From NCBI GenBank assembly GCA_030765065.1, contig CM060979.1:111464350-111528349 (forward strand): a stretch of 64,000 bases of DNA, in the 5' to 3' direction. Below, in pieces: positions 7,628-60,155 of the stretch. The translations under genes were made by a program, and so were the position numbers. Under the pieces are notes generated by a model. It was given only the letters and a program-made list of their open reading frames with translations, did no database searches and was not told the DNA's origin. Origin of the DNA: Deroplatys truncata (lineage: Eukaryota > Arthropoda > Insecta > Mantodea > Mantidae). Every line of letters begins with the position of its first letter. Position 1 is the first letter of the stretch.

Positions 7628-8372
7628 TTAATTTCTCTACCACGTACTTAGTAGGTAGAGAAGATACTACATTCCACCCAAAAATTCGATAACGAGATTT
7701 CACGGAAATCCGTCACGTTTTGAAGCCCCCGAATCCAAAAAAGCATTTTTAGAAAAAGATCCTTGTGTGTGCCTGAACAGCATAACTCAAAAACAAATAG
7801 TTGGATAAATACCAAACTTGCTATTTAAGTTCAGTATCTTCCAAAGATGCGACACGAAGATTTTCAAGAAAATCCCCCCACCCTCAACTATTCTTTACAT
7901 GGAACCTTTCTCAAAAATGGCTTTGACGATTTTGATTAAAATACTACATTGAAGATGACCACATGACAATAAAATGTGTATCTTGAATTTCCTGGGTATA
8001 GCCTGTGAAGACCACCTCATTAAAAAGGAATTTTGCATAATCTTGTATAACTGGTAAACGTAAAACAATCTGATGAGAACGTAAAAATTTCTGTGCCATA
8101 AACCATTTCCGAGATATTAATTATTAATGGTTCAATACTTGGTAATTGTTTTAAAGTCCTGTCGATTTTCAGTTGTTTCTCGCGATTGCTTGGAAAGACT
8201 ATGGAATTTTTATGCCATCGTATAAGCGAAATGTGTAATGTAGCTATTACCGAAAAGGTTTACCTCGATTAAAATTAAGTAGGTAGAAAAAATAAACTTT
8301 CGCAAGAGTAGTTGTGTATCGGTAATAAATGATAAGGTAGAGAAAGTTGTGTGAATGTAGCATTTCAGTTTT
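7628..8372 (+). mobile_element. R1 (DINE-1-like) copy, full length
   Basis: Starts TTCTCTACCACGTACTTAGT, whose palindromic half AGGTAGAGAAG follows. It keeps the core blocks CAGCATAACTCAAAAAC and ACCAAACTTGCTATTTAAG and ends with GGTAGAGAAAGT plus a T-rich run. Confidence 0.85.
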
Positions 8373-8985
8373 TTTTTTTAATCTTTACACACTTTGTTTC
8401 AAATGTGATCCAAGGTATTGCTTTTCTTTGTATTCAGCGGGATTGTTACCGATAAATGAATCATTTTGGTGAGCACTGGCGCCTAAAGTTTCACACTAAG
8501 GTACTTTGTATCGTCAAGCTTTACCCCGTTTTCTATATTACTCGAAAAGTTTTTCACTGGTTGCCGTGCGGATCGATGAAGAGCGAGTAGCCTTCACAAA
8601 GCTGTGCTGTCAGACCGGTGTCACAAAGTAAAGTGGCACGTTAGGATTGGCATAACGGGATATGTGTCCCACAGCTACTTAACAATACATGAACTGACGC
8701 CCTGGGTAACACTTCCTCGCTTCGCCGCAGTAAGCGATACCATACCTGCTTGCTTGCTTCTTGTTTTAAACACAAGTCAGACCATGTGTATCTTCATCAA
8801 TGCATCTTACCTGACGTCAACCCATGCATACGATAAAGCCGTAACCAATATGTTACATAATAAATGTTATGTATATTTTTATTTTGTATAAATAGCTGTT
8901 CATCTGAACACCTTTAAGACGTGTATCAACTTACGCATTTTGTAAAAAGACACATCCAGAAAATAATCTCCTCCGTAGTTTATTA

Positions 8986-9031
<46 letters not shown>

Positions 9032-9420
9032 AAAATATTGGTTAACCAATTTCTGATAATAAGCTGGTGGGCATAATTGCATTTTGTATAATATGTAATG
9101 ATTTACATTAGCAATGAAATCCATTACAACATATAGAGGGAATGCAGCAAAACCTTCTTACATAAGGATTGTTATAAGATTTTGGCATAACTATGTATCG
9201 TATCTACCTTTACGCTTCTCCCAACATTTAGAAAAGGTACAAACGATATGCCGCTTATTATGTAAGAAACTATAAACGCAAACTTTCAACAAATCGCTTG
9301 TCATGCCACTACTTTGTTAAGAGGCTATAAGTGCGGACCTGTCTTTGTTACGTGGGATGGGATCCCCAGGAAAGAATGGTAACTTTTATCGCTTTTTTCA
9401 AGCGGAAGTTCCTTTGAACC
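8373..9420. other. Unrecognised intronic or intergenic DNA with (ATT)n
   Basis: Contains an (ATT)n tract at 8983-9027. A 95-codon open frame at 8604-8891 has no recognised domain and is taken as chance. Confidence 0.4.
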
Positions 9421-10243
9421 CTTTTTACTTTCTCTACTACATAGTAAGTAGGGGAAGTATTGTATTCCACCCAAAAATTCGATACCGAAATTTCACCGGA
9501 AATATATGTTTTGAGGCCCCCTGAACCCAAAAAGAGCATTTTTGGAAACATGTTCGTGTGTGTGTGACTGTGAACAGCATAACTCAGAAACGAACAGTCG
9601 GATGAACACCAAACTTGGTATTTAGGTTCAGTATCTTCCAGAGATGCGACACTAAGGTTTTCAAGAAAATCCCCCCACCCCAGATTACCCTTTACATGGA
9701 ACATTTTCCGAAAATTTTAATTTTCTCAAAAATGGCTCTAACGATTTTGAATAAAATACCATAAGTTTAAGACATTTTTGTGGCAAATGAATTGTATATC
9801 TCGAATTTTCTGGGAATGTCTCCAAAAGTATTCTTCATTGTGAACGACTTTTGCATAACTGGTAAACCATAAGAGATAGACAAAAGTTACTACACAAAAA
9901 ATGACATTTACATTTTTGTTGTTGAGTGAACCATTTTCGAGATATTGCTTGTTATTCCCTTAAATTTTCCAATGCTTACACTTTTTCTCAAATGGGAATT
10001 CGTTATTCATTTTTTTTTGTCCTGGACATGCAAAGAGAATGGAATACTCCACATAGCAACCAGCTCTTAAAATATTTGACTATCGCTTAAAGCCTACCAA
10101 TTCACCTTGCATCTACAAGAAAATTAGTAATAAGATTAACATCTCGATATCTCGATTAACATGAAGCAAATGGAGAATAAGAGTTTGTAAAAATAGTTTG
10201 TACAAGAGTAGAAAAAGCCATGTGAGTGTAACACATCAGATTT
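9421..10243 (+). mobile_element. R1 (DINE-1-like) copy, full length
   Basis: Clear 5' end TTTTTACTTTCTCTACTAC, microsatellite core GTGTGTGTGACTGTGAACAG, then ACCAAACTTGGTATTTAGG and CAGTATCTTCCAGAGATGCG. The 3' end CATGTGAGTGTAACACATCA forms the small stem-loop. Very similar to the copy at 59188-60155, suggesting both are relatively young. Confidence 0.9.
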
Positions 10244-10708
10244 TTAAATTTTGCAGCAACTATATAACCAGTTTCGCCTGTGTTCTGTTTTCTTGGTGGC
10301 TAAATCCTAATCATCTGTGTACATTGCTTGAATGGAATATCTTTTTCTCAAACACACGTTTTATTGGAGAAACAACTATTTTATACCATGCAATTCTCAA
10401 CGAAAAGTCAAAGCTTTCTTCACAAGCATGTTCTTTTATGTCTGCAATCCAACATACATACTTTTTTGTGCATTTATTTCAGTTTAACTTACTATGTCAT
10501 TCTATCGCAACGAATTTACAGTGAAGTAACATTTCTGTGTCACGGATTGCTTTAGAGTACAGACTTTGTTAACCCATTTTAGTATTTTAGTAATTAAGGA
10601 ATTGGAATTACGTTTCTTTATAGTTTATGTCCGTCGGAAAGTACAGTGGTTTTGAGTGGTGAAAGAATTAGCGAAGTCGGTTTAATGGTTTCCCCCACGC
10701 GCGCGCGC

Positions 10709-10709
10709 C

Positions 10710-10754: not shown

Positions 10755-10757
<3 letters not shown>

Positions 10758-11060: not shown

Positions 11061-11061
11061 A

Positions 11062-11597: not shown

Positions 11598-11794
11598 TGA
11601 GTCTCCCTGTATATATAAGGAATTTTAAAAACAAGAACAAATGAAAGTAATAGGTAATTGGTTAAAGTGTGTTCAAAGTGTTTTTAGCGCTTCGACGTTG
11701 TGTAACGTTATTCAGATAGATTTCGGCAGATAATTATACACCATGGCGGCTGAGCCGAGGTTATTGTTGTATTGTTCCCAGTACAGTGCAAAAT

Positions 11795-12112
11795 TTACTT
11801 TCTCTACCACATACCTAGTAGGTAGAGAAGGTATTGCATTCCATCCAGAAATTCGATACCGAGGTTTCACGGAAATACATGTTTTGAGGCCCCCCGAATA
11901 AAAAAAACATTTTTGGAAACATGTCCGTGTATTTGTGAACAGTATAACTCAAAAACGAAAAGTCAGATAAGTACCAAACTTAGTATTCAAGTTCAGTATC
12001 TTCCAAGGATGTGACACGAAGATTATTAAGAAAACTACCCTTTACATGGAACATTTTTCGAAAATGCCTATTTTCTAAAAAACGGCTTTAACGATTTGAT
12101 TAAAAAATCTGC
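11795..12112 (+). mobile_element. R1 copy, 5' part only
   Basis: Starts ACTTTCTCTACCACATACCT and runs through GAACAGTATAACTCAAAAAC to ACGATTTGATTAAAAAATC, where it stops abruptly against an inverted R1 copy. Confidence 0.85.
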
Positions 12113-12116
12113 CGTA

Positions 12117-12891
12117 TTGCATTCACATGACCTTCTCTACCCTCTATCGCTTATTGGGTATACAAACTATACTTACTAAAGCTTATTTTTCTATCCATTT
12201 CATTTTAATGCAAATAAACCATTGCTGCATTACACATTTCGTTACATTAATGACAAAGGGGACAACGTTAGTCAAATGTTTAAGAACTGGACGCTGAACT
12301 TAAACTTCCATGCTCTTTCCATGGAATCGCGAAAAACAACTGAGTGTTGACAGGACTTGAAAAGGATGACCAAGTATTGTACAAATCGAACTATCAATAA
12401 CGGATATCTCAGAAATGGCTGTGTTTTAAAGAGATGTATCTACACTTTTTGTGTAGTACATTTTCGTCTCTCACTTAACGTTTACCAGTTATACAAGATT
12501 CTACCTACAAAATTCTTTCCGAATGAATGCGACTTCATAGGTATTCCCATAAAATTGAAGATATACATTTTTTCATGTAAATACTTTTAATACCTTATTT
12601 TAATCAAAACCACGATAACCATTTTTAGAAAATAAAACATTTCGAAAAATGTTCCATGTAAAGGGTAGTGTGGGGTGGGGGATTTTCTGGAAAATCTTAG
12701 TGTCGCATTTTTGGAAGATACTGAACTGGAATACCAACTTTGGTATTTATCCAACTTTTCGTTTTTGAGTTATGGTTAACACACACACACACGCGCGCGC
12801 GCGGGCGTTTTTCTAAAAGTGCTTTGTGGGGTTCAGGGGGCCTCAAAACATGTATTTCCGGTGAAATATCTACATCGAATTTTTTGGTGAA
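12117..12891 (-). mobile_element. R1 copy in reverse orientation, lacking its own 5' end
   Basis: Reading right to left it runs from TTCGATGTAGATATTTCACC through the core (CACA microsatellite 12778-12803) to GGTAGAGAAGGTCATGTGAA. The expected ACTTTCTCTAC 5' terminus is replaced by a second, inverted 3' end at 12892-12972. Confidence 0.8.
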
Positions 12892-12972
12892 TACAGTAAG
12901 CTTTAGTAAGGATGGTTTGTATGCCTACTAATAAAGATAGAGGGTAGAGAAGGTCATGTGAACATATCACAT
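12892..12972 (+). mobile_element. R1 3'-end fragment making a ~60-bp inverted repeat
   Basis: AAGCTTTAGTAAGGATGGTT through GAGGGTAGAGAAGGTCATGT is the inverted counterpart of 12122-12183. The reverse R1 copy is thus flanked by two 3' ends. Confidence 0.8.
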
Positions 12973-13369
12973 TGGATGTTTTGCTCCAGTTACGGCCGCA
13001 ACTGTTACGTGCGTCCTTTTAGCTTGCTTTACTGTATAAACCTTGAGTAACCCTGTGTTGTTCAGCAGGAGACCGAACTGATGATGTCCTTTATTACGTA
13101 CTGTATGATTCCTTGTACTCTCTGTAGTTGGCTTCAATATTTCCAACTAGGAGTGCATAACATCTCTGTTGCTGAAAGCACCGTTGTATTTATTACGTGA
13201 GTGAAGAAGTTTACGTGTTTTAAATGTTGTTGCTGCAGTATAACTCAGAGGTTTACGACTTAAGTGAGCCTCCTTTAAGCTTGTAATATTGATGTGCATG
13301 TTAAGAAAGAGTAGCATTAAGTGAAGAAGACAGGATGATTTATTGCAACATGTGGTTTTTGTGTTGCAG
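12973..13369 (+). other. Intron just upstream of the RING exon
   Basis: Ends in a T/G-rich stretch and ttgcag acceptor. No other feature is seen. Confidence 0.5.
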
Positions 13370-15911: not shown

Positions 15912-18415
15912 GTAAGTATTTCTTTTACATACAGTACTAAAATGTCTTCAAATAGCTCGAATTCTTTGACTACACAGGGCTTTAAAACCCGTCAGATCTT
16001 GGGAGCAATAATTGATTAGTGGGATGTCTAGACTCGTTAAAGGCTTTCTCACAAAAAACCAAAAAAACAAACAAACAAATTCCCCGTTATATGAAGGAGA
16101 ATACCAAGCTAATTTGTAAGTTCAGTATTATTTTGCAGGAACCGAAGTTTGGAAAATGAAGTGAACAAGCAATCAAACGTATTTGAGCTATAGAGAGGGA
16201 AAATATGCTTTTATCCAGCTTCTCTAAATTGAAGTTGTCCTACAGATAATTCTGAATAAGGATAAAAACCCATATAAATGTCGTAAATGATTTTTAAAAT
16301 CTGTAAAACTAAGAGAAAATAAATTCCTCTGTAGATGTTTGTGGTATTAAATGTGGGAATCTTTGTAAATAGCTGATAACATACACATCCTGAGATGAGT
16401 GATTGAGTGAGAGGGAGAGAGAGAGAAGAGCGTTTGAGAGAGAGGACGGAGCGAAGGATGGTTGGAACGAAGGCATAACATATATGTTAAAATCAGATAC
16501 ACGGGTTTCCAATATAATTTTCTATCTGAGAATATTAATAGTAACAATCCCTAATTTTGGAAAGCTTTATTACGAATTTGTTGCTTGTGGTGTTTGTAGA
16601 TATTGGTCTAAAGGCGCCACACTTATTCCTGTTTTCATGACTCGGAACGGTTTCTCGATAATGCAGCTGCTTACCGTATATGACGTTCACTTCAAATTAT
16701 AAGGTCTAATATACGGTGTAATTAGAAATCCCTTAGTAACCTCTCAGTACTGTTAACATAGCAGCATTATATTCCCCGCGGAAATGTTGAAGAGAGTAGT
16801 GGGGATTCGCCGGTAGCAGGCTGCCGCAAATACAATAGATAGGAGTGTGGCAAAGAGGGCAGGTTGTTCGTTTCTGATCCTGTTACAGCACTACATTTTG
16901 GAAATAAATGTTATTAAACGATGCTTCTGTGCATACTTTTCCTGTATATTTGGTAAATGGATGTGCATTTTAATTAATGTAATTTGCCATTTATTATTCG
17001 TTACAAGCAAGTTGCATATCTTGCTCAATCTTGGTTATTAATCGCACTACAACACTAAACCTACTAGACATGTGGTTTCTCGGACTCTTCCTTGTGCTGT
17101 TACTCCCCACCAGTCTTCAAAAGGCTTAGTATAACCTACTGTTCTATGTGTATTTTGATGCAGTACTCCGCGGTTTATCCTTTCATTATGGTTATTGTTT
17201 ATATCCATTCTTTACTCTTGTGGGATGCATTATATTGTGGAGTACGCCAAACTTATCTGCAGATGTTTTTATTGTTAAATAAAGAAGCAAAACATAGAGA
17301 GTTAAATAAATTTTAATAGATAATAACGGCAAGAATTTTAGTAAAAGGTGTAGTAATAGTTTTAAACTAAAAAGAAATAGTAACCTAGGTCGTCAGTTGT
17401 TCTTTTGTAGAAAAACACACGTGCTCAACAAGTCGAAGTGCTGTATCGGTCTTCAGCGTCATGGTAGTAATTTATGAAAGCAATCAGATACTGAATCTAA
17501 GGCCTATACTAGAAAGGGACAGTGGAGATAAAATCCAAGCATTCTCTCCTCCAGGAATCGATACCGGAACCTCCCGAGCAGTAGCCGCTCGAACCGAATG
17601 AGTCATATCTTTGATCCTGCATCAAGTATTGTAGCAGTTTATCTTTTGTCATCCCGCAAGCTATTAGAAGAAATAATAGGGCAGGCGGGTTTTTCCACAC
17701 AGCCGATGTAACTGCCTATTGTAAACAGATAATTATCAAATACGGGATAAAGCTGCATTACAAGCTATGCTCTTCGGCATGTTCCCAAATTCCGTAGAAT
17801 ACCTATATAGAGTTGCATTGCTATTCATATGTTTGCTGAATATTTGATAGCACCATCGCCACGTTTATCACCACAAATAATAATAACGATGATAATAATA
17901 ATTACTCCAATCAAAACTACACCTACATCCTATCTCGGCGGTGTAATGGGTAGCGTTTTTGTCTAGTAATTTGCAGGGACTCAGTTCATATCTCGGCTTA
18001 ACAAAATTGACAACCAGATCAACCGAATCATGAATAAGATTTGGCAATAAGTTACGTTATCAAAAGCAAAATAGCTACAAATTAGTAGCAGTGGCCCCTT
18101 AGAAAGTGTCATATTAGCCTTGAAACTTTGAAGGCTTATAAGTTATAATTCATGCTACGATCAGTGATTTGTACCAATTTCTTCCGCATCAAATGCGCAC
18201 TTTTGTTATTTGTAGTCGTTAATACATAAGTGCATTAAAACAAAAGTTTTCAAGTTAAACGGAAATTACTTTTATCCAAGAAAAGGGTTGTGTGGCTTTT
18301 ATTTTCAAATTCTTGCATTCGAGGATGTTTTATTCTAGTTTATAACTTAATAAGTAAATTTCATTAAATAATACACCATTTTGGATTTGTTTGTTCAATT
18401 TCGCTGCAATTTGCC
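15912..18415 (+). other. Intron, mostly unique
   Basis: Begins gtaagt. A (GA)-rich stretch lies at 16409-16445. A tRNA-like B-box fragment may lie near 17940-18000. No coding feature is supported. Confidence 0.45.
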
Positions 18416-18419
18416 TATG

Positions 18420-18500
18420 CTAGTTAGAGGAAGTATTGCATTCCACCCAAAATTCGAAGTGAGATTTCAGCGGAAATGCATATTTTGAGATCCCAGAACG
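18420..18500 (+). mobile_element. R1 fragment
   Basis: Matches the R1 5' region: GGAAGTATTGCATTCCACCC, AATTCGAAGTGAGATTTCAG and GGAAATGCATATTTTGAG. Truncated on both sides. Confidence 0.7.
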
Positions 18501-18796
18501 TCTAACTATGAAACTTATAAAAAATGTAAAACTTATGTTTTTGTTTAAGAGTTTATTTCTGCTCTTGGTAGTTTTCCCGCATTTCAAACTATACAATACC
18601 GAAATTTCATTCCCGCACTTTCTTTCTCACCAGGCCTTCAAAATACCTTCAAATCAGGCACTAGCACACCTGTCTAGTCCTGGATACATACTTCTTTTCA
18701 ATGTCTGACACACTATTGACCGTTAGCATGTAGATACATAGGAATAATAAAATGTGTGTTGAAACCAACGGAAACTATAACAAGCTAAGAAGTGTT

Positions 18797-21258: not shown

Positions 21259-21303
<45 letters not shown>

Positions 21304-21640
21304 GCACAACTCAAAATGAAAAGCCGGAATGCGAAAGTTAGTATTTATGTTCAGCATCTTCCAAGAATGCGAGATTTTCCGGAAATTCAAGCTATTCTTT
21401 ATCTGGACAAGTTTTCATTAAAATACCACATATTTAAAATATTTGCATCGTTAATAAAATGTGGATAGGTGTATCATGAATTTTCTGTGAATAACCTATA
21501 AAGTCGTCTGCATTCTGAATAAATTTTGTATAATTGGTAAATCATAAGATATAGATACAATCTTACTATACAAAACATGTAGAGCTCAGTGAAATTTATG
21601 TCTAATAAATACTTCTTTTGCATTAGCCGTTTTCCGAATA
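21195..21640 (+). mobile_element. R1 copy, truncated, with expanded (GT)n core
   Basis: CTGAATCCAAAAAAAGGCAC precedes a GT tract at 21235-21300, followed by ACAACTCAAAATGAAAAG, TCAGCATCTTCCAAGAATGC and CTGTGAATAACCTATAAAGTC. The 5' and 3' ends are missing. This is the longest microsatellite core of any copy here. Confidence 0.8.
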
Positions 21641-21644
21641 TTCG

Positions 21645-22278
21645 TTGTATGTTTAAGTTTCCACGGTTGTATTTTGTTTGTGGAATTGTGCATGCAACCT
21701 GTTTGGTTTAGGATTATATATATTAAAAGTTATTGTTAACAGAAGAATAGCCTTTTTTATGCGAATAGTGTAATTATTAGTGGAATTATGTGAAGTTGCA
21801 ATGGGCAATTTATCAAACAATCACACTTCTTTCTGCCGGATTAGGAGCAACCACGTGTAGTATAGAAGGGATGTGCAAATTCATTTGATAAGATAGTTTC
21901 AAAGAGTTTGAAAACTGCAAATACCTTCCTTCTTTTTCTCATATCTAAAAGAAAGTGAAAATGAGCTCACACATTAATAATTTTAAAAATTAAATCCGAA
22001 TGAAATGTATATATAGCCAGAACGGTTGGGTGTGGTTATGAAAACGAAACCCATAATTTAGTTGAATAACTCTGACAAAGGGTTTGTAGCAGATTAGCCA
22101 TTACATGGTGTTTTTAATGGCAATTACTGACAGAATGAGGAACATTATAGCTTTATTACCAGTCGCCATAATCAGCCGTACTGGAATAGCTTTGATTAAT
22201 ACCAGTGTTCCATGTCACAGTGTACACATTGCTTGGATGTGCAGTATATCTAACATGCCGCGTTGTGCTATTTTGCAG
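21645..22278 (+). other. Intron before the RAWUL-start exon
   Basis: AT-rich unique sequence ending in the gctattttgcag acceptor. Confidence 0.5.
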
Positions 22279-23380: not shown

Positions 23381-24925
23381 CTACACCCTCCGGGAGGAAG
23401 GGATGAAGTGAAGAATTCGCAGGAAGTCGCAAGTCCGCAGGCAGACAGGATTACAGAGCCACACGGAAGTCCCTATCATTTCCAGTACGAAACACCCGCT
23501 CTCGCCAGTAGACAAGACTTCGGCTACCCGTGTCATTATTATTTTATAAGATGAATGGGTACTGTAAATGCCCATTAGGATTCTTGACTCAATAGGAACT
23601 CGTGAAGTAAATTGTGCAGAATTAATGAAAAACTGTTTAAAAAGCGAGAAAAGCATCTCTTTAATTCCAAGATTCTGTAATGCACTTCGCAAACGTATAT
23701 TTCAGAATATATTTTTCGCTATATCGTATTTTGGCTTCGTGGAAAGAGTTCTGCTAAGTGAAGAAGAGTCCATTTTGAACGTAAATTGACACTACGGCGG
23801 AATCAAGTGAACGTGTCATTCCGTAGGTCATGACAACCAACATGCACAGAAGGCAGATATTTTACGAATAATAAGATAAATATTACAGCATTGATATGCA
23901 ACTTGACAATCTGGGTCGTTGATGTAATATTTCTACTTCTAGCTCTCTCTATACGTATCTTCTATTTATCTTTAGCTTTAAAGCATAGACATAACGCCTC
24001 TCCCACTACCTTTGAGATGATTAAAGGTCGGCACCAAAGTACCTGCAACTAATGTACATTTAAAATTAAGGGAGAAGATACCCTCAACGTTCCTAAATAT
24101 TTTTGAAAAAAAAAAAAGTCATTTTATGTTCTCCACAGAATGAATATTTGAAGTATGTAGTATTTAATTTCAATCGCCATACTTCGCCTGTTCAGTGCGA
24201 AAGTATCACACCTCTCTTTCAAATATTTTCTTTTGTGCATTTAAAAATATTAGATTTTCCTGAACCACAAGCAATTTACTGAAGTTTTTCATTTAGTTAT
24301 ACATTACATTTTGAATCTTCTTATCAAAGAAACTACTGTGTATGTACATTTATTCCAAAATATTGTGCAATAATTTACGTATTAGTATGTCTTTGCTAAT
24401 GAAATTTATCGAAATGTAGATTAGATTGTTATTTTAATATGTTTAAATATTATGGAATGATTATTTTAAAAAGCAATATAAATTAACTTTAAATAAAATA
24501 CAAATGAGTTTAAGTCAAGCCAAGAAAAACAATACATATTAATATTCTTGAATATCGCCGAAGGCCTTTCCCTCGAGTACCTCCTAAGGTATAATTTTAT
24601 TTAATACTAAGAAATTTTTGTTTAAACTTAGAAGTAGTTTTAAAATTACCATCTAGGAGAAAGAGTACATACATAATATTTCAGTCAAAAGATGGAGTAT
24701 CGACTTTCAAATATGACTGAGGTAAATAAAATCGCTTGAATATGTACTCCTCTAGAGAGAAACTCCTTAAAATGATCCTAATTATACCGAAAACAATTAT
24801 TTATAATAATCCTTTATGGCTCCAGAAGTTATAAAATAATTGTTCCTAAAAACGTTTCCCTGAATATTTTTTTTTTTTTTAAGTATCTATAATTTAACTC
24901 AGAGTAGGAGAGAAATCTAGGAAAA
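23381..24925 (+). other. AT-rich intron with 19-bp exon copy
   Basis: No element is recognised except the 19-bp match to the exon at 22354-22372, found at 24564-24582. Confidence 0.45.
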
Positions 24926-25763
24926 TGTTACCTACTCCATGGCGACTTTCTCTACCCTATATAATTTATTAGTGGGCATACAAACTATTATTACGAAAGT
25001 TTATTTATCTATCTACTTCATTTTAATACAGATAAGCCTTTCCGGAAATAGCTGCACACATTTCGTTATAGATACGAAGGGAATAGCGAAAGCCAAATGG
25101 TTTAGAACTGGACAATACACACTGGCCTTAAAATTCCATACTCTTTCCTTGAGACCGCTAAAAACAATTGAAAATGGACTTTAAAAGAATGACTTAAGCA
25201 TTGAGCAATTCGAACCATGACAGGCCAAAAAAGTTATTTAAAATAAATTGTGCGTTTTTATATTGTTTTGTAGTATGTTTTCGTCTATCGCTTAACGTTT
25301 ACCAGTTATATAGGATTATACAAAATTCCTTCCGAATGAAGAGGCTATTCCCAGAAAATTCAAGATATACATTTTGTTTGTCATGTAAATTTCTTTAATA
25401 TATGGTATTTTGATAAAAGTCGTTAGAGCCCTTTTTTAGAAAATTAAAAATTTCGACAAATCTTCTCTGTAAAGGGTAATTTGGGATGGAAGTATTTTCT
25501 TGAAAATCTTCGTGTCGTAACTTTGGAAGACATTGAACTTAAATACCAATTTTGGTGCTATTCCGACTTTTCGTTTTTGAGTTATGCTGTTCATTGGCAC
25601 ACCCCCCCCCCCCACACACACACACACATGAAGCTTTTTCTAAAAATGATTCTTTTGGATTCGGGGGCTTCAAAACATGTATTTTCGGTGAAATATCGGT
25701 ATGGAATTTTTAGCTGCAATACAATACTTTTCCTACTGTATACGTAGTAGAGAAAGTGAAAAG
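24926..25763 (-). mobile_element. R1 copy, near full length
   Basis: Reverse copy from GACTTTCTCTACCCTATATA to TACGTAGTAGAGAAAGTGAA. The CA core at 25613-25628 is preceded by a C run. Confidence 0.85.
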
Positions 25764-26215
25764 AGAATCAGAGATATGCAGTGATACAAGCCGAGGAAGT
25801 TCTTGAAAACAGCCGATTTTTCTCGGAAGTAGCTGTTCTGTTGACATCTCTTCCGAAAGGAAGAATGCTGCGGTAGTTGGTAAAAATTCCACTGGCTTTA
25901 AGCGAGTGAGCAACTTTTTGACGGTGAAAGTTGTTGCGGAGAGAGTGCGCGCGCATGCCAGCAGCAGCCTCAGGCAGGAGCTGAACTCGGACCTGTCGGA
26001 TATCGAGTGAAAGGAAATAAAAAACAAAACATCTTCAGCAAGTTTATTTGTGGCAACTAGCAAGCGGTTCCGTCCGGATTAATGGGCATCGAGACAAGGA
26101 CAGCTACTGGCCACCTTTATCCTACTAGGGAGTCTTGCCTAGCAGAAAACTGCGCAACTACTCGGCTGGATAGGTTGTCAACCTATACTGATACTAGGTT
26201 GTAAAGAAACAATTC
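25764..26215 (+). other. Intron without recognised repeat
   Basis: Lies between two reverse R1 copies. A reverse-strand 117-codon open frame (25710-26063) overlaps the R1 edge and has no recognised domain. Confidence 0.4.
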
Positions 26216-26216
26216 T

Positions 26217-34748: not shown

Positions 34749-34751
34749 TTA

Positions 34752-43079: not shown

Positions 43080-43350
43080 GAAATCTTTATATTCTACAGG
43101 GAAATTGTTTAATCTCCGGGGAAAAGAAGTAAAAAGAGAACTTAATTTATATTGTTAACAGATGCCCTGTTCTGTGCATAAAGGAAAATTCAAGATATGC
43201 AATTACTTGTCATTCTGTTAGCTTAACTGTATGTAAATTCTTAAAACGTTTTCTTAGAAAATAAATGAGTAAAGTAAAGTGATAACTGGGATGGATGGAT
43301 TTCTCTGAAAAGATTTGCTGCGCATGTTCAGAAGAAGTTTAACTCTAAGG
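43080..43350 (-). mobile_element. Degenerate R1 fragment
   Basis: GGAAAATTCAAGATATGCAA, GGGATGGATGGATTTCTCTG and AAAAGATTTGCTGCGCATGT follow the reversed R1 middle region in order. No ends are seen. Confidence 0.5.
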
Positions 43351-46226: not shown

Positions 46227-47031
46227 TTATTTTTACTTTCTCTACCTCGTACGTAGTAGGTGGAGAAGGTATCGCATTCAACCGAGATTTCACCGGAAAT
46301 AATATTTTGAGACTCTGAATACAAAAGAAGCATTTTTAGAAAATTGTTCGAGTGTCTATGAGCAGCGTAACTCAAAAACGAAAAATTTTGGTGTTTAAGT
46401 TCAGTATTTTCCAAAGAAAATCTCCCTACACCAAACTACCCTTTATATGGAACACTTTTCAAATTTTTTTATTTTCTAAAAATGGCACTAATTATTTTGA
46501 TTTAAATACCACATATTAAAATATTTACATGACAAATAAAATGTATATATTGAATTCCCTGGAATAGCCTTCGAAGTCCTCTTCATTCGGAAGAAATTTT
46601 GTATAATCTTGTATATCTAACTCGTAAACTTAAGCGATAGACGAAAACGTACGGCACAAGTAATGTAGATCTCTTTAAGACATACTATTAATTTTAAATA
46701 AATGTTTGTGGCATCACTCATTTCCGAGATATCCGTTATTAATGGTTCGAATTGTTCCATGCTTAACCAATCATTTAAAGTCCTATATTCACTTGTTTCT
46801 CACGGTTCCATGGAAACAGTATGGAATTTTAAGGCCAGCTATAGCGTCCAGTTCTTAAACATTTGACTATCGCTGTTACATTTCTATCTATAATGAAAGG
46901 TGTAATGTAGCTATTTCTGCTAAAGTTTATTTTGATTAAAATGTAGTACGGGGCTTTAGTAAGACCTGTTAAATACCCAGTAATGAGTGATATTGGGTAG
47001 AGAAAGACATGTATCACATCAGATTTTTAGA
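46227..47031 (+). mobile_element. R1 copy, full length
   Basis: Starts TACTTTCTCTACCTCGTACG with its palindromic partner TAGTAGGTGGAGAAGG, and ends GGGTAGAGAAAGACATGTAT then CACATCAGATTTTT. The core microsatellite is reduced to GAGTGTCTATGAGCAGCG. Confidence 0.85.
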
Positions 47032-48376: not shown

Positions 48377-48797
48377 TATTATATTACTAACCGTGCTTCG
48401 GGTAAAATTTCTCGTTGTTTAGTTGTTGAGAAAGAATACGTTATGTAGGCTTCTCCGTGCATGTAATTTGCTGGACATCCCCTGGTTAACGCTTAGTTAG
48501 GAAATTACTGTTGTATATGTATTTTTTTAAACATGAATGGTTATACAAACAGTACATTTTCGAGTGTAATTTTAATATGCGCATATATGTCTTGTTTCCT
48601 TTTTGTAAATATTTCGCAATTGGGTGGCTGATATTAACATCTCGGCTTGTGACAATTGAATGGTAACAAAATACTGGCACAATATATTCAACAGCATTTT
48701 CAACACCAGCTGTTGTACACGTATCCAAACTCGGCGTACCTACATAATTTTATGTCAGCAGCGGCGAAAATTCACGCGCGCAATACCATGCAGCAGG
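48377..48797 (+). other. Intron between mariner and R1 copy
   Basis: No feature recognised. Confidence 0.4.
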
Positions 48798-49606
48798 TGT
48801 TACAGTCACATGACTTCTCTACCCACTATCGTTTATTGTATAGCTTCCACAAACTATTCTTATGAAAGCTTATTTTTCATTTAATCGAAATATACCTTTG
48901 CATAAATAGTTTATCATACATTTCGTTATAGGTGGTGAAATGGTATAGAGGAAGTTTATCGATAGATATAACAAGCTACTTGGCTCTTGGAATTCAAACT
49001 CCTTCCATGACATTGCAGGAAACAAAAATAGCGACAGCACTTTAAAAATGAAAAAAAAAAGTTGAAAAATTCAAACCAATAATAAGGATATGTTGTATAT
49101 GACTGATGTCTTAGAAAAAGTTATTTGAAATAAATTGTGTGTTTTAAAGAGGTTTATACTTTTTGTGTAGTACGTTTTTGTCTATCTTATACAAAGGTGT
49201 ATAAAACTCCTTTCTAATGAAGAGGAATACTTCTCAGGCCATTCCTAGTAAATTCATGATATACACTTTATTTTTCATGTAAATATCTTAAATGCCTATA
49301 TGGTATCTTAATAAAACTCGTTAGTCATTTTTAGAAAAAATATTGCATAATTTTCTATGTAAAGGGTAGTTTGGGATGGGAGGATTTTCTTGAAAAGCTT
49401 CGTGTCGCATCTTTGGAAGATACTGAACTTAAATACAAAGTTTGGTATTATTTACCGCACTTCTCGTTTTTTAGTTTCACAGATAATCTACACACGCGGA
49501 CCATCTAAAAAAAATGGGGGGCGGCTCAAAGTGTCTCAGAACATGTATTACCGTTAAATTTCGATATCGAGTTTTTTGGTGGAATACAAAACTTCCTCTA
49601 CTTGTA

Positions 49607-50487
49607 CGAGGGCTGATCAACAAAGACTGAGACTGATTTTTTTTCACAGATGTTTATTACTCCAATTCAATGTTTACATGATCTTTTTCAAAGTAGTCCC
49701 CTCCTACTTCAATGCACTTTTTATAGCGTCTCTGCCAGTCCTTGAACACGTGCTGCAGACCATTCTTTGTCAGGTCCTTGAGAATCGCCTCACTTTTCTT
49801 GAGCACTGCTTCAGAGTTCTCAAATCGAATACCCCTAAGCTTTGCCTTTAGTGATGGGAATAACAAAACGTTACAGGGTGCAAGATCGGGGCTATAAGGT
49901 GGATGTGGTACACAGGTAATGTTGAATCGAGCCAGAAACTGCATGACTTGATTTGCGATGTGAGACCGTGCATTGTCATGAAGTCGCCACCCAGTCCTAG
50001 AAAGCTCTGGTCGTTTCTTTGCAATGTGCTTCCTCAGTATTAGCCAATACGGACGTGTAGTATGCTGCTGTAACAGTAGTGTGAGGGGGAACTGCATGCT
50101 GGTAAATCATTCCATTACAGTCAAAAAATGTGATCACCGCCACTTTCCCTGCAGATGGAACAACTTTTGCCTTTTTTGGTGTTGGAGAACCTGGCGATTT
50201 CCACACTGTGCTGGCTTGTTTTCCTTCAGGATCATAATAATGCAGCCATGACTCATCACCGGTGATAATTGATTTAAAAAAATGTGTTACCTCCATTGTG
50301 TGGTATGCAAAATGCACGTAGGGTCTACAAAATAGAGCTTTACTACCAACCTACCATACGAGAGTGCTGCCGCCTACCAACATTATGCATAAAAACCCGC
50401 TCTTTTCAAATATTTATGTTACAGATACGAAACTATCACGGAAGCTACAGGAAAAAATCAGTCTCAGTCTTTGTTGATCAGCCCTCG
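49607..50487 (-). mobile_element. Mariner element, internally deleted (881 bp)
   Basis: TA-flanked, same family as 47487-48376 with near-identical TIRs (CGAGGGCTGATCAACAAAGA). Inserted into an older R1 copy. Confidence 0.92.
49657..50320 (-). pseudogene. Mariner transposase catalytic-domain remnant
   Basis: The reverse strand starts near TMEVTHFFKSIITGDESWLH (first catalytic Asp in GDESW) and goes through KKAKVVPSAGKVAVITFFD and NGMIYQHAVPP. After a frameshift near 50025-50050 it continues with HDNARSHIANQVMQFLARFN (second Asp). The third catalytic position reads Asn in YSPDLAPCNVLLFP. The C-terminal end KCIEVGGDYFEKDHVNIELE and stop are intact. The HTH part is deleted. Frameshift, D-to-N change and missing HTH each argue against activity. 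Confidence 0.88.
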
Positions 50488-50511
50488 TAGATACGTATAG
50501 TAGAGAAAGTA

Positions 50512-51500
50512 GAAAAGCCGGCCAGAGATAAGTCCACATGCTACTCGCGAATAGCCGTATGACGCGAGAAAAAAAGGTGTCAGTGGTTAAAGTGTCTCAC
50601 GAACCCAGGTCACCGAGACGTTAGTTGCTGATGTCCACTACACCAACCGGAAAATATAGCTGATAGTGATTAACTTTTAGCCGGTCTTTAACATTTTAGT
50701 TTCAATAAGAAGTCAATGACAGCGGACCATACCTATGCTTGTTTTTGGACTAGATTATATTTTTTGAAATCAAGTAACTGAACGATGTGACCTTTCCTTG
50801 TTACTCAAGGTATCCGCTGGTGTGCTCTCCTAAAGAAATAGTTTTTTACCTTGTGTGTTTCAAGCCAGTTTTGCACAATTTCCCGTTCCTGGCACACCTA
50901 TAATCAATTTTATACATGTTGAAAACACGTTTCTTGTTCTCACCAGGCGAGCGAAGTTCCGGAACCCGCTCTTGCTTGCTTTAGCATTCGTATGTTGTCA
51001 TCTGGGAGTGGTTTAGGGAATTAATCACCCAACCAGAATGAAAATGTATATTTGTGTGAAACTACTAATTCGGAACTAATTTCAAAATACAAGGTTGGAA
51101 GAAATGAATTGTTTATTCAGGAGTTATTTGGGCATACTTAAAACTTAAATGCTCATTTAATAAAGTAAACTATACTAATTTTATAAAGAAAATATGTGTG
51201 TGTGTGTGTGTGTGTGTTGTGTGTGTGTCTATAGAGTAATCTTAAAAACCGTTCCGTCTATTCTGACAACCCTTTCAACATTCGCAGACATAGACTACTA
51301 GACCTCCTGATTTCAATTTCTAAACGACTAAAATACTAAAAAAGAATTACAAGGCTTGCTTGCTTGCTAAAATACGAACACAATGAAGTCATAAAAGGAA
51401 CATGCTTGCGGGGATGACTGTGACTTCGCTTTGAGAATGCAAATGCAGTAGGAAACCGTTGTTGCCCTGTGTCTCTTATATACTCCACATTAATGCATGT
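50512..51500 (+). other. Intron with (GT)n
   Basis: A GT run at 51195-51228; a tRNA-like piece may lie near 50585-50640. No other feature. Confidence 0.4.
51195..51228 (+). repeat. (GT)n microsatellite
   Basis: GT run with one interruption. Confidence 0.95.
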
Positions 51501-51713
51501 AAAAAAATCTTGTGCGTTACATTTACATGAGATTATCTACCCTCTGTGATTTATTCAAGGGTATAAAACCTATTCTTACGAAAACTTATATTTCTGTCTA
51601 TTCCATTTTAATCAAGATGAACATTTGCAGAAGTAGCTGATTTACACATTTCATTATAGATACTCGTACAAAGGGAAAAGCGATAGTCAAATGTTTAAGA
51701 ACTGGACGCTATA

Positions 51714-52425
51714 CCAGGAGGCCCAAACAAGCCGTCATTTTCAGTTGTGTTTCCCTCATACATAGGTGCAAAATAAGTTGCCGCATGATTGCTGTTCAAA
51801 GGGGCAGTACAGGTACAAAGCGAAAGGAAACAGGTAACTGCTGTCTGCAGGTGTTTAGGTGGTAGTTACGTACTGTTTTAGGTCACGTGGTCGTCTGCTT
51901 TCAGTTCGAGCCAGGCTGTTAAGACAAAAAGGTAACGTTCACTCCAATAACGAATACACAGAAATAGCTATTTTGCGGAGACGCACCAAAATGCAAGTGA
52001 GGCTCGAAAGTTGTGTTCTGAACATTTTAATACGCTGAATCTGTCTTCTCCGCAGTTTTTTTCCCTCTTTTTTTGGGGGGGGGCATACAGAAATAATATT
52101 AAGAAATTATGTATCACTCCAGGTAGAACGTACGCCTGAGAGGCCCTTAACATCATTTCGTTCACCAAGGCGGGCATATTTTTGCACATGCTTATTCTGA
52201 ATAATGCACTAATATACAATAATTTAATTCCAACGTATCTTTAAGGGTACATAAATATAATAAAAATATAATTTTGTTTAATCCTGTTAACTTTGCGGAC
52301 TGTATATTAACTGTCATGGAACTAAATGACTGAACACGTGTGCTCAGATTAGCATCAAGCGGCAATCCTGAATTTTTTTTAACGAGCGAATTGCTTATTA
52401 AATAACCGATAACCCCCCAGCCCCT

Positions 52426-52466
<41 letters not shown>

Positions 52467-52780
52467 CTAGGTACTCTTACATTCAATCACCAGACTCTGG
52501 GCATACCCTGAATTTTTTTTGTTTAAGGACAACTTTCTGGATGCAGCCGATGATCGAACCCGGAACACGTCATATAGCAGGCAGTTTCCCTATGGAATGA
52601 GCTCTGGGATCAGTGATAGCCGTTAAAGTGTTCGTTTTCAAGCATTGGTCTTTCATTTAGCAGTCTCCTCTCTGTTGGTATGGAATCCCCTTTGCAGTTC
52701 TGCTGAGGCAAACCTTTTGGCATCCGCGCTATCCGGTATAGTTTAGCTTCAACTATGGACGGCTTGTGTGGGCCACCTGG
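51714..52780. mobile_element. Non-autonomous DNA transposon, 1,067 bp, ~24-bp TIRs
   Basis: The left end CCAGGAGGCCCAAACAAGCC and the complement of the right end CCAGGTGGCCCACACAAGCC both go on to GTC. It interrupts an R1 copy, which fixes its boundaries; flanks are TATA and TATG, compatible with a TA(T) duplication. It holds a CA microsatellite and a reverse tRNA-like fragment but no intact transposase. SNNEYTEIAI near 51940-51970 weakly recalls a transposase N-terminus. Confidence 0.8.
52431..52464 (+). repeat. (CA)n microsatellite
   Basis: Perfect CA run inside the TIR element. Confidence 0.95.
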
Positions 52781-53639
52781 TATGTTGGCCTTAAAATTTC
52801 ATGTTCTTTCCATTCAATCGCGAGAAACAAGTGAATGTTAACTGGAATATAAGGGAATGATCAAGAAATGAACAATTCGAACCTTCAATAGCGGATGTCT
52901 CGGTAAAGGCTGAGGCCACAAAAATATTATTTGAAGTAAATTGTGTGTTAAAGATATTTGCATGTTTTGTAGTACGTTTTCGTGTATCGTTAACGTTTAC
53001 CATTTATACAAGATTATACAAAATTCGTTCTGAATGAAGAGGATTTCACAGGCCATTGGCAGAAAATTCAAGACACACATTATATTTCTAATGTAAATAC
53101 GTTTAATGTATAGTATTTTAATTAAAATCGTATGGGTCATTTTAGAAAAAAAAGTCGAAAAATGTTCCACGTAAAGGGTAGTTTGGTTTGGAGGATTTTC
53201 TTGAAGATCTTCGTGTCGCATCTTTGGAACGTACTGAACCTAAATACTAAGTTTGGTATTTATCTGACTTTGCGTTTTTGAGTTATCTATGCTGTTCACA
53301 ACACATACAAGTCAAATGGACTACGATTTGCTTCAGTGAAACAAGATACAAATCACAATATATAAATAAATACAACTGAAGAATATAGAAGCACGTAAAA
53401 GACATCCGTAATTTAGAAAAAAAAATTATGTATATATTTACTAAACCACACACACATGGGCAGGCATTTTTCTAATTTTTTTGTATTCAGAGGACCTCGA
53501 AACATGCATTTTCGGTGAAATTTCGGTATCAAATTTTTGGGTGGAATGCAATACCTACCTTCTCTACCTACTATGTTCTGGTAGGGAAAGTAATAAGACA
53601 AAAAGCAGACGACTCAGCAAACAAAATATAATCGGTCCC

Positions 53640-55655: not shown

Positions 55656-56520
55656 ATTTTTACTTTCTCTACTACGTATAACAAGTAAGGGAAGTACCTA
55701 TTTATTCCACCCAAACATTGATGTCGAGGTTTCGCCGGAAATATATGTTTTGAAGAGCCCTGAGCACATACAAAAAAAATCATTTTTAGAAAAAGGTCCG
55801 TGTGTGTCTCTCTGTGAACATAACTCAAAAACGAAGATTCGATAAATACCAAACTTGGTATTTAAGTTCAATATCTTCCAAAGATGTGGCACGAAGATTT
55901 TTAAGAAAACCCCACCACTCTAACTACCCTGGAACATCTTTCAAAATGATTGATTTTCTAAAAAAATTCTTTGACGATTTTGATTAAAATACTGTAATTA
56001 AAGATATTTATATCACAAATAAAATGTACATTTTTAATTTTCTGGGTATAGCCTGTGAAGTCCTCTTCAGTCGAAAGGAATTTTGTATAATCTGGTAAAC
56101 ATTAAGCGGTAGACGAAAACGTACTGCACAAAAAATGTAGATCTTTTTAAGACACACAATTTATTTCATATAACTTTTTTGTGGCATCAGCCATTTCTGA
56201 AATATCCGTTCTTAATAGTTCGAATTGTTCAATACTATGTCATTCTTTTAAAGCCTCGTCGATTTTCGAGTGTTTCTCGCGACTGCATGAAAAGAGTATG
56301 GAATTTAAAGCTAGAGTATAGCATCCAGTTCTACAACATTTGACTATCGCTATTCCCTTTGTATCTATAATGAAATGTGTAATGGAGTTTTTTTTGGAAA
56401 GGTTTATCTCGATTAAAATGAAGTAGACAGGAAAATAAACAAACTTTCGTAAGAATAATTTCTATACCCATTAATAAGCGCTATAGGGTAGAGAAAGTCA
56501 TGTGAATGCAACATCACTTT
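55656..56520 (+). mobile_element. R1 copy, full length
   Basis: Starts TTTTTACTTTCTCTACTACG, core GTCCGTGTGTGTCTCTCTGT then GAACATAACTCAAAAACGAA, ends GGGTAGAGAAAGTCATGTGA. Confidence 0.88.
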
Positions 56521-57218
56521 TCTTTTTAAATAGCGAAATGCATCACATTGCGATTGCCTGATCGTGTTTAGCGTTCAGAACTTTCTTAGTAGGGCTGTCT
56601 TCTTTATTGATCTCTTCTGCCGTTCTGTTTCTTCCCTAGTGGGATATCTGTATATTCTGGAATGAGCATCTCCTCTAAGTGATCTGTCTCTCTCTGAATA
56701 TGGCCCATTTCCCGGTTTTATTTTGAATCGGATACGAATTTGGATTTTAATACTTACGCAATAGGTGCATACCGTCACACAAGAGCTAGCCACATGTTAT
56801 GCGGTCTCAAAATGCGCGGAAAGCATTCAACATAAAACGAACGAGTGCTCATGGCGGGCAGAGGCAGTGGCACGTCTACGCCTTTGCTGGTTGCATGAAA
56901 TATATCTATAGCAGCGAAGGTTCTAAATGTAATGAATCTTTGTGATATTTATGAATATAAATTAAAGTGATTTTGTGATTTGTATTCTGATTTTGATTGT
57001 GTTATTCGTTTTAATTAATTGCTTTGACAATTTTGCCGAATGATAGATATAATCTAAAGTAAGTTAGTTGCCGCACATGCTACTGTGTTGGAAAACTGTT
57101 TGTGGCAAAAGAGTATGTGGCAATTCATTAACATGAATAACCTTGGTTTTCTAGGTGTTGTATTTAACTTTTAACATTTGAAATACATAAAATAATTGCT
57201 AATTTTCTCTTGTTGCAG
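56521..57218 (+). other. Intron before the micro-exon
   Basis: Unique sequence ending with a pyrimidine-rich tract and ttctcttgttgcag. Confidence 0.5.
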
Positions 57219-58132: not shown

Positions 58133-58145
58133 GTAAGTTACAGTG

Positions 58146-58493
58146 AGTGGCAGCGCCCTGGCCGAATTGACAGTCCGTCCCTCACCAAGGTGGCCCGAAT
58201 TCGATCCCAGGGACCCACGTGGGATTTGTGTTGAACGAAGCGACCCCTTGGGCGTGTTTTCTCCTTGTTATCCGGTGCACGCCGTTCATTCCACCAATTG
58301 TTCCATCATCACTTACGTTTCATCCATTTACCTTCATTTTTATACCATCTTCTTCCCTCACTCTCATACCTGATTCTGGGTTCTTAATTCTCTGATTCAG
58401 TGTTCGTCTGCTCATCTACAGACCTCTGACCTAGGCACGGTTGCATGTTCTAGGGGATGTAAGGTCTACATACGATGAGGATAAGCCGACTAA
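58146..58493 (+). mobile_element. SINE family S4 with perfect 13-bp target duplication
   Basis: GTAAGTTACAGTG occurs at 58133-58145 and again at 58494-58506. Between them is a tRNA-like head (GCGCCCTGGCCGAATTGACA; B-box CGAATTCGATCCCAGGG), a body of about 270 bp and the end AAGCCGACTAA. Ends and flanks are those of a LINE-mobilised SINE. Confidence 0.88.
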
Positions 58494-58506
58494 GTAAGTT
58501 ACAGTG

Positions 58507-59187
58507 GGAAACGTTAGGCGATATGTGAATTCATACAGTTTCAAATGATGAGACAAATCCTTGAGAGAACAAAGGTGCAGAAAAACTACCAAGGCACTTC
58601 ATTCGAGTGTTTCCTGTATTGTTGTTATTATAATCACCATTCTTATTGTTATTATTGCTATTAAGATTATAAACATTACTCATTCGCAATTTACAATTAA
58701 TACAAATAAAGCGATAGAGTCAGCGGATGAATCTGATCAGCAATTAAATAAACTTATTGAGTAGCAAAAATTCTCTCTTTATATAGTTGACTCTCTTTCT
58801 CTCTTTCTCTCTCTGCGTCCGCTCCTATTAATTATGAGCTGGCCGTTAAGTTACTAGTCAAGTAATTAATTTTGAAAGTCAAAATAAAAAGGTGCTCCCA
58901 TGGGACAGAGAAAGTACCGGGGCGGCACCCTGTTGCGCCCTTGCACCACTGCACTCCTGACTTGATGGGAAACTGAGCATTAGTGCGCTCCTCTTGCCCT
59001 TCATCTTAAGAAAACACTCGGCTGACAGCATCCAACAACTCCCAAGCGATAATTGATTCTTGTTTCACGATTTATATGAAAATGTATATGGCAGCAACGA
59101 GAAAAAAAAAAGTTATAAAAAGGAAACTAAACATGTAATGCTGTGTATAAATCTTATGGGTTCAAATTCAACAATGCTTTCCCTTTC
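58507..59187 (+). other. Intron without recognised gene
   Basis: Contains a CT-rich tract at 58788-58816. No other feature. Confidence 0.4.
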
Positions 59188-60155
59188 TTTTTACTTTCTC
59201 TACTACGTATAGTAAGTAGGGGAAGTATTGTATTCCACCCAAAAATTCGATACCGAGATTTCACCGGAAATACATGTTTTGAGACCCCCTGAATCCAAAA
59301 AAAGCATTTTTGGAAACATGTCCGTGTGTGTGTCTGTCTGTGTGTGTGTCTGTGAACAGCATAACTCAGAAACGAACAGTCGGATAAACACCAAACTTGG
59401 TATTTAGGTTCAGTATCTTCCAGAGATGCGACGCGAAGGTTTTCAAGAAAATCCACCCACTCCAGATTACCCTTTTATATGGAACATTTTTCGAAAATTT
59501 TAATTTTCTCAAAAATGGCCCTAACGATTTTGATTAAAGTATCATATGTTTAAGATATTTTTATGACAAATAAAATGTACATCTTGAATTTTCTGGGAAT
59601 GTCCCCAAAAATATTCTTCATTGTGAACGACTCTTGCATAACTGGTAAACCATAAGAGATAGAAAAAATTTTACTACAGAAAAAATGTAGATCGCGTTAA
59701 AATACACAATTTATGTCATATACATATTTTTTGTTGAATGAACCATTTTCGAGATATTGCTTGTTATTCCCTTAAATTTTTCAATAATTTTCTCAAATGG
59801 GAATTCGTTATTCATTTTTTTGTCTTGGATATGCAAAGAGTATTAATCTGTGGCAAAGAGAATGGTGTTGCACATAGCAACCAGCTATTAAGATATATGT
59901 ATATGCTTAAAGGCTACTGTATTTCTATTTTGCCCTTGTAAATACAAAACAAGGGGAACATAGTACGCCTTAAGCGATAGTCAAATATTTTTAGAACTGG
60001 TCGCTATGTGTAAAATGTAATTCTCTTTGCCTGTCAAAAGATCGTTTCTGCAAATGTTTATCTCGATTAATATGAAATAGATTGGAGAATAAGAGTTTGT
60101 AAAAATAGTTTGTACAAGAGTAGAGAAAGTCATGTGAGTGTAACACATCAGATTT
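59188..60155 (+). mobile_element. R1 copy, full length, best preserved
   Basis: Starts TTTTTACTTTCTCTACTACG, core GTGTGTGTCTGTCTGTGTGT, then GAACAGCATAACTCAGAAAC, ACCAAACTTGGTATTTAGG and CAGTATCTTCCAGAGATGCG. Ends AGAGTAGAGAAAGTCATGTG followed by AGTGTAACACATCAGATTTT. Confidence 0.92.

Follow-up and report, generated by a model that had tools for sequence, protein, structure and literature searches.

The window analysed here, a stretch of 64,000 bases (C5:111464350-111528349) from a genome of which 4,289,915,091 bases (4.29 Gb) were searched, contains many copies of one interspersed repeat, which we call R1, and at its far end carries part of a Psc-like gene. That gene, proposed in a first-pass annotation of the window, is supported by a RAWUL domain (Table 1). 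The same annotation had described R1 as a DINE-1/Helentron-like family. Our results support this description, as R1 matches the published plan of DINE-1 and HINE elements (PMC4067079, PMC2374699) and a coding partner was found. The family has shared ends, a 5' hairpin, a microsatellite, a core, a 3' stem-loop, T-run boundaries and dispersed copies, in addition to this partner. We conclude, with a probability of about 0.96, that R1 is a non-autonomous Helentron (HINE) family of the DINE-1 layout, a known kind of element.

An R1 consensus and an nhmmer profile of about 890 positions were built from nine long window copies, and the same sequence reversed served as the control in R1 searches. Profile matches cover 11,603 of the 64,000 bases (18.1%), which bears out the earlier estimate of more than a tenth, and a BLAST search with the consensus covers 17.3%; the reversed window gave no match with either method. 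Sixteen of the 17 sites listed in the first-pass annotation have starts matched by the profile, but at 18960 nothing rose above threshold. Pieces beyond that list were found by the profile at 2952-3818 (two pieces), 27470-27571 and 35682-36056, and by BLAST only at 28409-28560. The nine copies lie at Kimura distances of 0.13 to 0.25 from their own consensus, which indicates that the R1 copies in the window are old. One minus-strand copy (12103-12898) sits inside a plus-strand copy (11794-12981), with CAGA followed by six T's in the place of a TTTT run of the consensus; the missing segment could be explained by a single deletion. The joined flanks of 11 window copies gave no convincing empty-site match, only one weak spanning match (65% over 81 bp), as is expected for dispersed insertions.

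Table 1. Features of the window (ranges under nhmmer and BLAST are profile or consensus positions; K2P, Kimura two-parameter distance)
Feature	Positions	Strand	Evidence
R1 fragment, 3' part	2952..3051	-	nhmmer 775-876, E 0.0017; BLAST E 4e-7
R1 fragment, probably one element with 2952-3051	3554..3818	-	nhmmer 132-347, E 3.6e-10
R1 full-length copy	7625..8374	+	nhmmer 1-890
R1 full-length copy, younger subfamily with the 59188 copy	9422..10245	+	nhmmer 1-890; K2P 0.11 to the 59188 copy
R1 5' part, host of nested R1	11794..12108	+	nhmmer 3-350
R1 nested in the 11794 copy; 3' end intact in host T run, 5' end deleted	12103..12898	-	BLAST 41-890; junction read
3' end of the host R1 starting at 11794	12895..12980	+	nhmmer 803-889
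R1 5' fragment	18394..18504	+	nhmmer 3-113, E 1.4e-13
R1 fragment with microsatellite and core	21275..21648	+	nhmmer 139-580
R1 full-length copy	24922..25762	-	nhmmer 1-889
R1 full-length copy, diverged	26211..27027	-	nhmmer 2-888
R1 5' fragment	27470..27571	+	nhmmer 3-111, E 3.4e-7; 28409-28560 (BLAST 729-890, E 3e-12) may be its 3' end
R1 5' half	34342..34781	+	nhmmer 3-473
R1 3' half, probably of the 34342 copy, about 900 bp away	35682..36056	+	nhmmer 449-880, E 9.5e-14
R1 full-length copy	37144..38018	-	nhmmer 2-889
R1 internal fragment	43184..43345	-	nhmmer 215-401, E 1e-9
R1 full-length copy	46231..47027	+	nhmmer 2-889
R1 with 5' inverted repeat split by mariner	48796..50515	-	nhmmer 17-880 at 48796-49610; 5' end at about 50510 and mariner ends read
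R1 in three pieces, split by a 1,066-bp insert (inverted ends, TA) and one smaller insert	51504..53595	-	nhmmer 655-889, 149-687, 2-152; junctions read
R1 full-length copy, best score in the window	55657..56522	+	nhmmer 1-887
R1 full-length copy with internal inverted piece	59188..60156	+	nhmmer 1-889
Psc/PCGF-type RAWUL exon	60780..60947	+	PF16207, 8.9e-20
Long open exon after the RAWUL exon, runs off the window	61322..64000	+	open frame; no Pfam match

Read from its 5' side, R1 consists of a T run, the 5' subterminal inverted repeat (subTIR) ACTTTCTCTACY, a short loop, an inverted arm resembling GTAGRGRAAGTAT (the inverted repeat, IR), a conserved block and a GT/CT microsatellite, which precedes the core in the copy alignment (for example, the GT/CT runs at 59319-59354). 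There follow GAACAGCATAACTCAAAAACG...CACCAAACTTGGTAT, about 600 bp more, the 3' subTIR RGTAGAGAAAGT, CATGTGANTGTAACACATCAGA with a 5-bp stem, and a second T run; the 3' subTIR is internal, lying about 22 bp inside the 3' boundary. The 5' motif, its inverted copy near the 3' end, the microsatellite, GAACAGCATAACTC and CACCAAACTTGGTAT, all of which the first-pass annotation had reported, were confirmed. The 3' stem ATGTG-N7-CACAT that it also reported is exact at three places in the window (10220, 12956 and 60132) and was found again in younger copies elsewhere in the genome, but it has decayed in the remaining window copies. The two subTIRs match at 10 to 12 of 12 bases in seven of eight full copies, a match equalled by no more than 2 of 100 shuffles. 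A second inverted repeat, absent from the earlier description, adjoins the 5' one and forms a 5' hairpin (z scores of -2.96, -4.81 and -3.76 in the three copies folded); in six of eight copies no more than 4 of 100 shuffles equalled the inverted match of this 5' IR. Rfam at gathering thresholds gave no match in the window or in two pieces of tandem array. Among the 96 window open frames of at least 80 amino acids (aa), Pfam returned no Rep or helicase match, so that at this length no partner lies in the window itself.

A search of the genome for a Rep/helicase element with the same ends, as the first-pass annotation had suggested, yielded a coding element with Rep, a PIF1 helicase and an AP-type endonuclease, not a DDE transposase. 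In this element of about 9.85 kb, an R1 5' block and an R1 3' end enclose an open frame of 2,345 codons (C5:94823970-94831005). The element was read in pieces, and for two inner stretches of the frame, which were left unread, openness is taken from whole-genome domain searches. It begins at C5:94822092 with R1 profile positions 2-748, an inverted piece, profile positions 327-532 and a non-R1 leader, and after the frame come the 3' end TGTAGAGAAAGTTATGTGAATGTAACACATCAGA and then TTTTTTTTATGTCC. It sits in the T run of another R1, whose sequence runs to profile position 637 and GTTATTCA-TTTT before the 5' end of the partner and resumes at position 638 at TTTTTTTTATGTCC. The 5' block of the partner is 91.6% identical over 773 bp to the window copy at 59188, the closest of four window copies compared.

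The N-terminal part of the partner frame matches Herpes_teg_N (cysteine-protease-like, 1.6e-9) and DUF6570 (3.8e-17). In the single copy read, motif 2 of its Rep is VEFQMRGSPHEH, with RGSPH, in which S separates G from P. The PIF1 helicase (PF05970, a family that also matches in 3 of 14 control genomes) lies in the same frame at C5:94828872-94829540 with 5.6e-27; a UvrD-like helicase end (2.7e-7) and a C-terminal Exo_endo_phos_2 domain (AP-type endonuclease, 4.5e-6) with SDHKPI are also present. Such an S in Rep motif 2, and a C-terminal endonuclease, are given as marks of Helentrons (PMC4067079). The parts of the frame that were scanned gave no reverse transcriptase match. Repeated charged motifs form an array between the Herpes_teg_N start of the frame (C5:94823970 onward, L055) and DUF6570.

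The Rep family PF14214 has at least 152 matches in the genome and none in the 14 control genomes. The 3'-end pattern of the partner, taken together with the element-specific bases before it, occurs 77 times in the genome and the junction between R1 block and leader 57 times, with no match for either reversed control. Of the 150 Rep matches listed, 51 have such a 3' end 3,970-5,685 bp downstream on the same strand, 50 have a junction 2,378-7,234 bp upstream on the same strand, and 40 have both; frames longer than 2,100 aa occur in 18 rows, every one of which has both. Counted from the sites, and again among the Rep matches listed, Rep lies on the expected side of 51 of the 77 3' ends and 50 of the 57 junctions, and within 12 kb it lies on the wrong side or the opposite strand of none. 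This recurrence shows that the coding element includes both the R1-type 3' end and the R1-like 5' block. The first 20 rows listed, which belong to a higher-scoring and mostly broken group, have neither an R1-type 3' end nor a junction nearby.

Two further observations concern these matches. The second Rep group, whose Pfam scores are higher and whose frames are mostly broken (C4:128870265, C1:38116489, C13:170325206, C16:246487701 and others), perhaps represents canonical Helitrons. On contig C15, eleven Helentron 3' ends with the same one-base variant lie within C15:105608962-107526715 at spacings of about 142-259 kb; this series is probably a large segmental duplication array.

R1 is bounded by about five T's on each side, a feature that the first-pass annotation did not contain. 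In ten window copies whose ends were placed by hand, the T fraction is 0.92 for the last five bases on the 5' side and 0.88 for the first five on the 3' side, and flanks of the same copy match no better than cross pairs (5.0 versus 4.64, p 0.12; in register, 4.2 versus 4.11, p 0.40). In 31 copies from the window and the genome, T reaches 0.87-0.94 at positions -5 to -1, 0.16 at -6 and 0.65-0.84 over the first six 3' bases, and the own-pair match is 3.42 versus 3.51 (p 0.77). In the larger set the script visibly misplaced 7-8 of the 31 boundaries on the 3' side and one or two on the 5' side, four rows are near-identical array units and two rows have common flanks, and for these reasons the hand-placed test is the cleaner one.

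Comparison of occupied and unoccupied sites gives the same picture outside the T run. Among 19 distinct unoccupied cases of the R1 site GTTATTCA-Tn-ATGTCC, 18 carry T7 and one carries T8; these counts cover uninterrupted T runs only, at least four copies with interrupted runs (L020, L021, L030 and L047) being left out, and 10 of the 18 T7 cases come from one tandem array. The GTCYTGG variant of this site, when unoccupied, has T7, T8 and T9 in four, two and one cases, respectively. Where the Helentron occupies the same R1 site the T's read T4 + T8, and where R1 occupies the site in L028 they read T5 + T6, versus T7-T9 when unoccupied. Because the non-T flanks are single at both occupied sites, insertion adds about five T's (Helentron) or two to four (R1 in L028) and nothing else. 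The nested pair in the window, with its lengthened T run, agrees with this. The earlier claim that R1 makes no target duplication therefore holds for everything beyond the T's, in the flank tests as in the unoccupied paralogues, but it is demonstrable only outside the T run.

R1 is abundant in the genome. A 21-mer from the R1 core occurs 265,059 times with up to one mismatch, and the 36-base 3' end 249,888 times with up to two; neither reversed control has a match. In 20 arbitrary 10-kb stretches, placed at round coordinates on C1-C5, R1 makes up 34,385 of 200,000 bases (17.2%; bootstrap range, 11.9-22.9%), with matches in 17 of the 20 and none in the reversed control. If these stretches are typical, R1 totals about 0.5-1.0 Gb and apparently accounts for roughly one sixth of a very large genome. 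So high a share of rolling-circle elements has precedent, since Helitrons make up 28% of the house-fly genome (PMC6327564). Three pairs among 11 R1 copies compared reach 95-97% identity, which indicates that some copies are much younger than those in the window. The R1 core had no match in viral and bacterial contigs; looser scans drew attention to three bacterial contigs and one viral contig, in which no R1 match was convincing (best E, 0.029), and these were taken as chance.

R1 also occurs in tandem. At two loci copies are joined head to tail via T runs: J22 consists of a full copy, a copy cut at an internal T run and a full copy, and J30 is similar, its first copy being cut by the edge of the fetched stretch. 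Smaller units are repeated elsewhere, with eight units of about 120 bp from profile positions 1-126 in L037 and five units of about 497 bp holding positions 276-616 in L040. Tandem Helitrons with 3'-truncated inner copies can occur (PMC7492417). The tandem forms of R1 fit either rolling-circle copying or insertion of R1 into its own T runs. A satellite with a unit of about 3.41 kb was observed near the starts of four contigs (C1:18.7-121 kb, C16:21-257 kb, C7:94 kb and C13:78-119 kb; L005-L012, L014 and L015), with all listed places within 260 kb of the contig start. A 41-mer from this unit, allowing three mismatches, has 102 matches, all forward and none reverse (control, 0), and each of 10 distinct units read contains one full R1. 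The satellite looks subtelomeric.

These features can be joined in a model. The Rep-helicase-endonuclease of the partner would nick at T runs, one strand would be copied by rolling-circle replication, and the resulting single strand would be joined into another T run. The partner would mobilise R1 in trans, treating it as its own by virtue of the same ends. Given the T runs at the ends of R1 and inside it, both R1 and Helentrons would be able to insert into or next to R1, and nested and head-to-tail arrays would be explained because the T runs of R1 serve as targets.

Several observations weigh against reading R1 as the non-autonomous form of this Helentron. Full copy c8 does no better than shuffles in the inverted-ends test, two of eight copies (c8 and c10) fail against shuffles in the 5' IR test, and the 3' stem is short, at 5 bp, and folds weakly (z score of -2.16 in one of six ends and of -1.06 to 0 in the others). 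The endonuclease match of the partner, at 26.9 bits, is just under the Pfam cut-off of 27.4. Only for the autonomous copy on C5 does the reading extend to the extreme 5' end, the block/leader junction alone being located elsewhere, and 26 of the 77 3'-end sites have no nearby Rep among the matches listed, 11 of them in the one duplicated C15 stretch. The R1 segment from about 640 to 850 is absent from the single autonomous copy that was read, which led us to reject a simple internal deletion of the partner as the origin of R1. R1 and the partner are perhaps different subfamilies, and by the rule of at least 11 identical subTIR bases (PMC4067079) they would be one family. One window copy is flanked by TTTTC on both sides, and the T's gained on insertion could be either element-borne or a T-only duplication.

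The last two points, together with the inverted repeats, the non-coding nature and the high copy number of R1, would suit a miniature inverted-repeat transposable element (MITE) of a cut-and-paste DNA transposon, with terminal repeats bound by a DDE transposase and a T-only target duplication of about 5 bp, since T5 on both sides fits a duplicated TTTTT. The internal position of the 3' repeat and the flank tests speak against this, and the combination of a non-T target duplication with terminal repeats at both ends was found in none of the R1 copies and sites read. Two foreign inserts in window R1 copies were read by eye as lying at TA, which is where mariner-type elements are expected: one is a mariner at about 50.5 kb, the other an element of 1,066 bp at 51.7-52.8 kb that has inverted ends. 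A MITE origin is largely refuted by the partner, whose R1 ends enclose Rep, PIF1 and endonuclease, and we assign hardly any weight to it. A canonical non-autonomous Helitron, or Helitron2, would likewise move by rolling circle without duplication and end in a 3' hairpin, and a second, more decayed Rep group does exist in this genome. However, R1 has subTIRs and a 5' IR, its ends as read lack the 5' TC and 3' CTRR given for Helitrons by PMC2374699, the partner has the RG-S-PH and C-terminal endonuclease of Helentrons (PMC4067079), and the other Rep group, in the first 20 rows listed, is without R1-type 3' ends and junctions; such an assignment is most improbable. It is similarly hard to believe that a Helentron merely inserted beside an unrelated R1 and that the shared ends reflect a chance neighbourhood. 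Given how common R1 is, one is to be expected beside any gene, but the 3' end and the junction lie at similar distances and on the expected sides in 51 and 50 of the 150 listed Rep rows, and in 18 of 18 with long frames, and the two halves of the host R1 (139-637 and 638-890) lie on either side of a single unit that starts with an R1 5' end and finishes with an R1 3' end.

The present results link, within one genome, a non-coding family to coding elements with matching ends, of which 18 among 150 listed Rep loci have frames longer than 2,100 aa. What stands out is the share of R1 in a very large genome, the apparently intact partners and the R1-bearing tandem arrays and satellites. A family as large as R1 is relevant to the question of why certain genomes are so big, and self-insertion at T runs is a testable route from a rolling-circle transposon to satellites. 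A wider proposal can be put forward only tentatively, and we think it rather less probable than its negation: that one DINE-1-type HINE family, at about 0.5-1 Gb of a 4.3-Gb genome, is among the largest single rolling-circle masses, is still fed by apparently intact Helentrons and grows partly via its own T runs into tandem arrays and a contig-end satellite, and that its core is homologous to that of Drosophila DINE-1, so that the family is very old or was moved horizontally.

Other repeats were also observed in the window. Two mariners, 77% alike, lie at 47485-48378 and 49605-50489, with transposase matches split over frames; the latter sits in an R1 5' end at TA. A six-copy interspersed family with a SINE-like (short interspersed element) look is present at 3396, 7098, 22553, 33211, 53729 and 54705, its copies measuring about 130-275 bp and being 85-92% alike to the longest. 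A 541-bp element at 11059-11599, a short way upstream of the 11794 R1, aligns with its own reverse complement at 69%, that is, it has long inverted repeats.

Among known systems, R1 can be compared with the mite, Culex and oyster HINE-Helentron families (PMC4067079, PMC7492417), which likewise have ends common to coding and non-coding elements, boundary T's and a Rep-helicase-endonuclease. The boundary T's number 2-5 in Culex and are held to be element-borne (PMC4067079). The oyster Cg_HINEs, like R1, have an IR and GTCY-type microsatellites (PMC7492417), whereas the mite HINEs lack the IR and core that R1 has (PMC4067079), and the partner of R1 differs in having a Herpes_teg_N domain in the same frame. 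The lepidopteran and hemipteran DINE-like "MITEs" with (GTCY)n (cited in PMC4067079 and PMC9659126) are microsatellite-bearing non-autonomous insect elements like R1, a likeness by description only. Neither "Helentron" nor "DINE" appears in the available parts of PMC9689775 and PMC6544945, and the literature searched yielded nothing on DINE-1 together with cockroach.

The plan of R1 is that of DINE-1, also called INE-1 or mini-me, of Drosophila (PMC2374699, PMC4067079). In DINE-1 the subTIRs are 13 bp long and the IR is partly complementary to the 5' one; block A contains a GTCY-rich microsatellite, the core spans about 90 bp, a 3' stem-loop lies a few bases downstream of the 3' subTIR, and insertion is at TT or T-rich sites. 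The parts of R1 and their order are the same, insertion is T-rich and the element is non-coding. R1 differs in its subTIR (ACTTTCTCTACY versus ATACCCGTTACTC and others in the published Table 1), in its 3' stem of 5 bp rather than 7-11, in having no central repeats in the standard copy and in its larger share of the genome. A provisional DINE-1 sequence can be aligned with R1, the match extending from the microsatellite through ACCAAAYTTGGTAT. Of 500 shuffles, 7 equalled its score when the entire sequence was used, none when core plus microsatellite was used and 4 when the core alone was used. Printed core letters were not found in the part of the literature searched, and with a provisional query this alignment serves as a lead only. 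The identity of the DINE-1 partner was called a mystery until 2014 (PMC4067079). By BLAST, DINE-1-related sequence was reported in Diptera only (PMC2374699), and DINE-1-like elements recognised by structure are cited for Lepidoptera, Hemiptera and others (PMC4067079). Should the R1 core prove truly homologous, and should its host not be a fly, the DINE-1 core itself would have a wider range.

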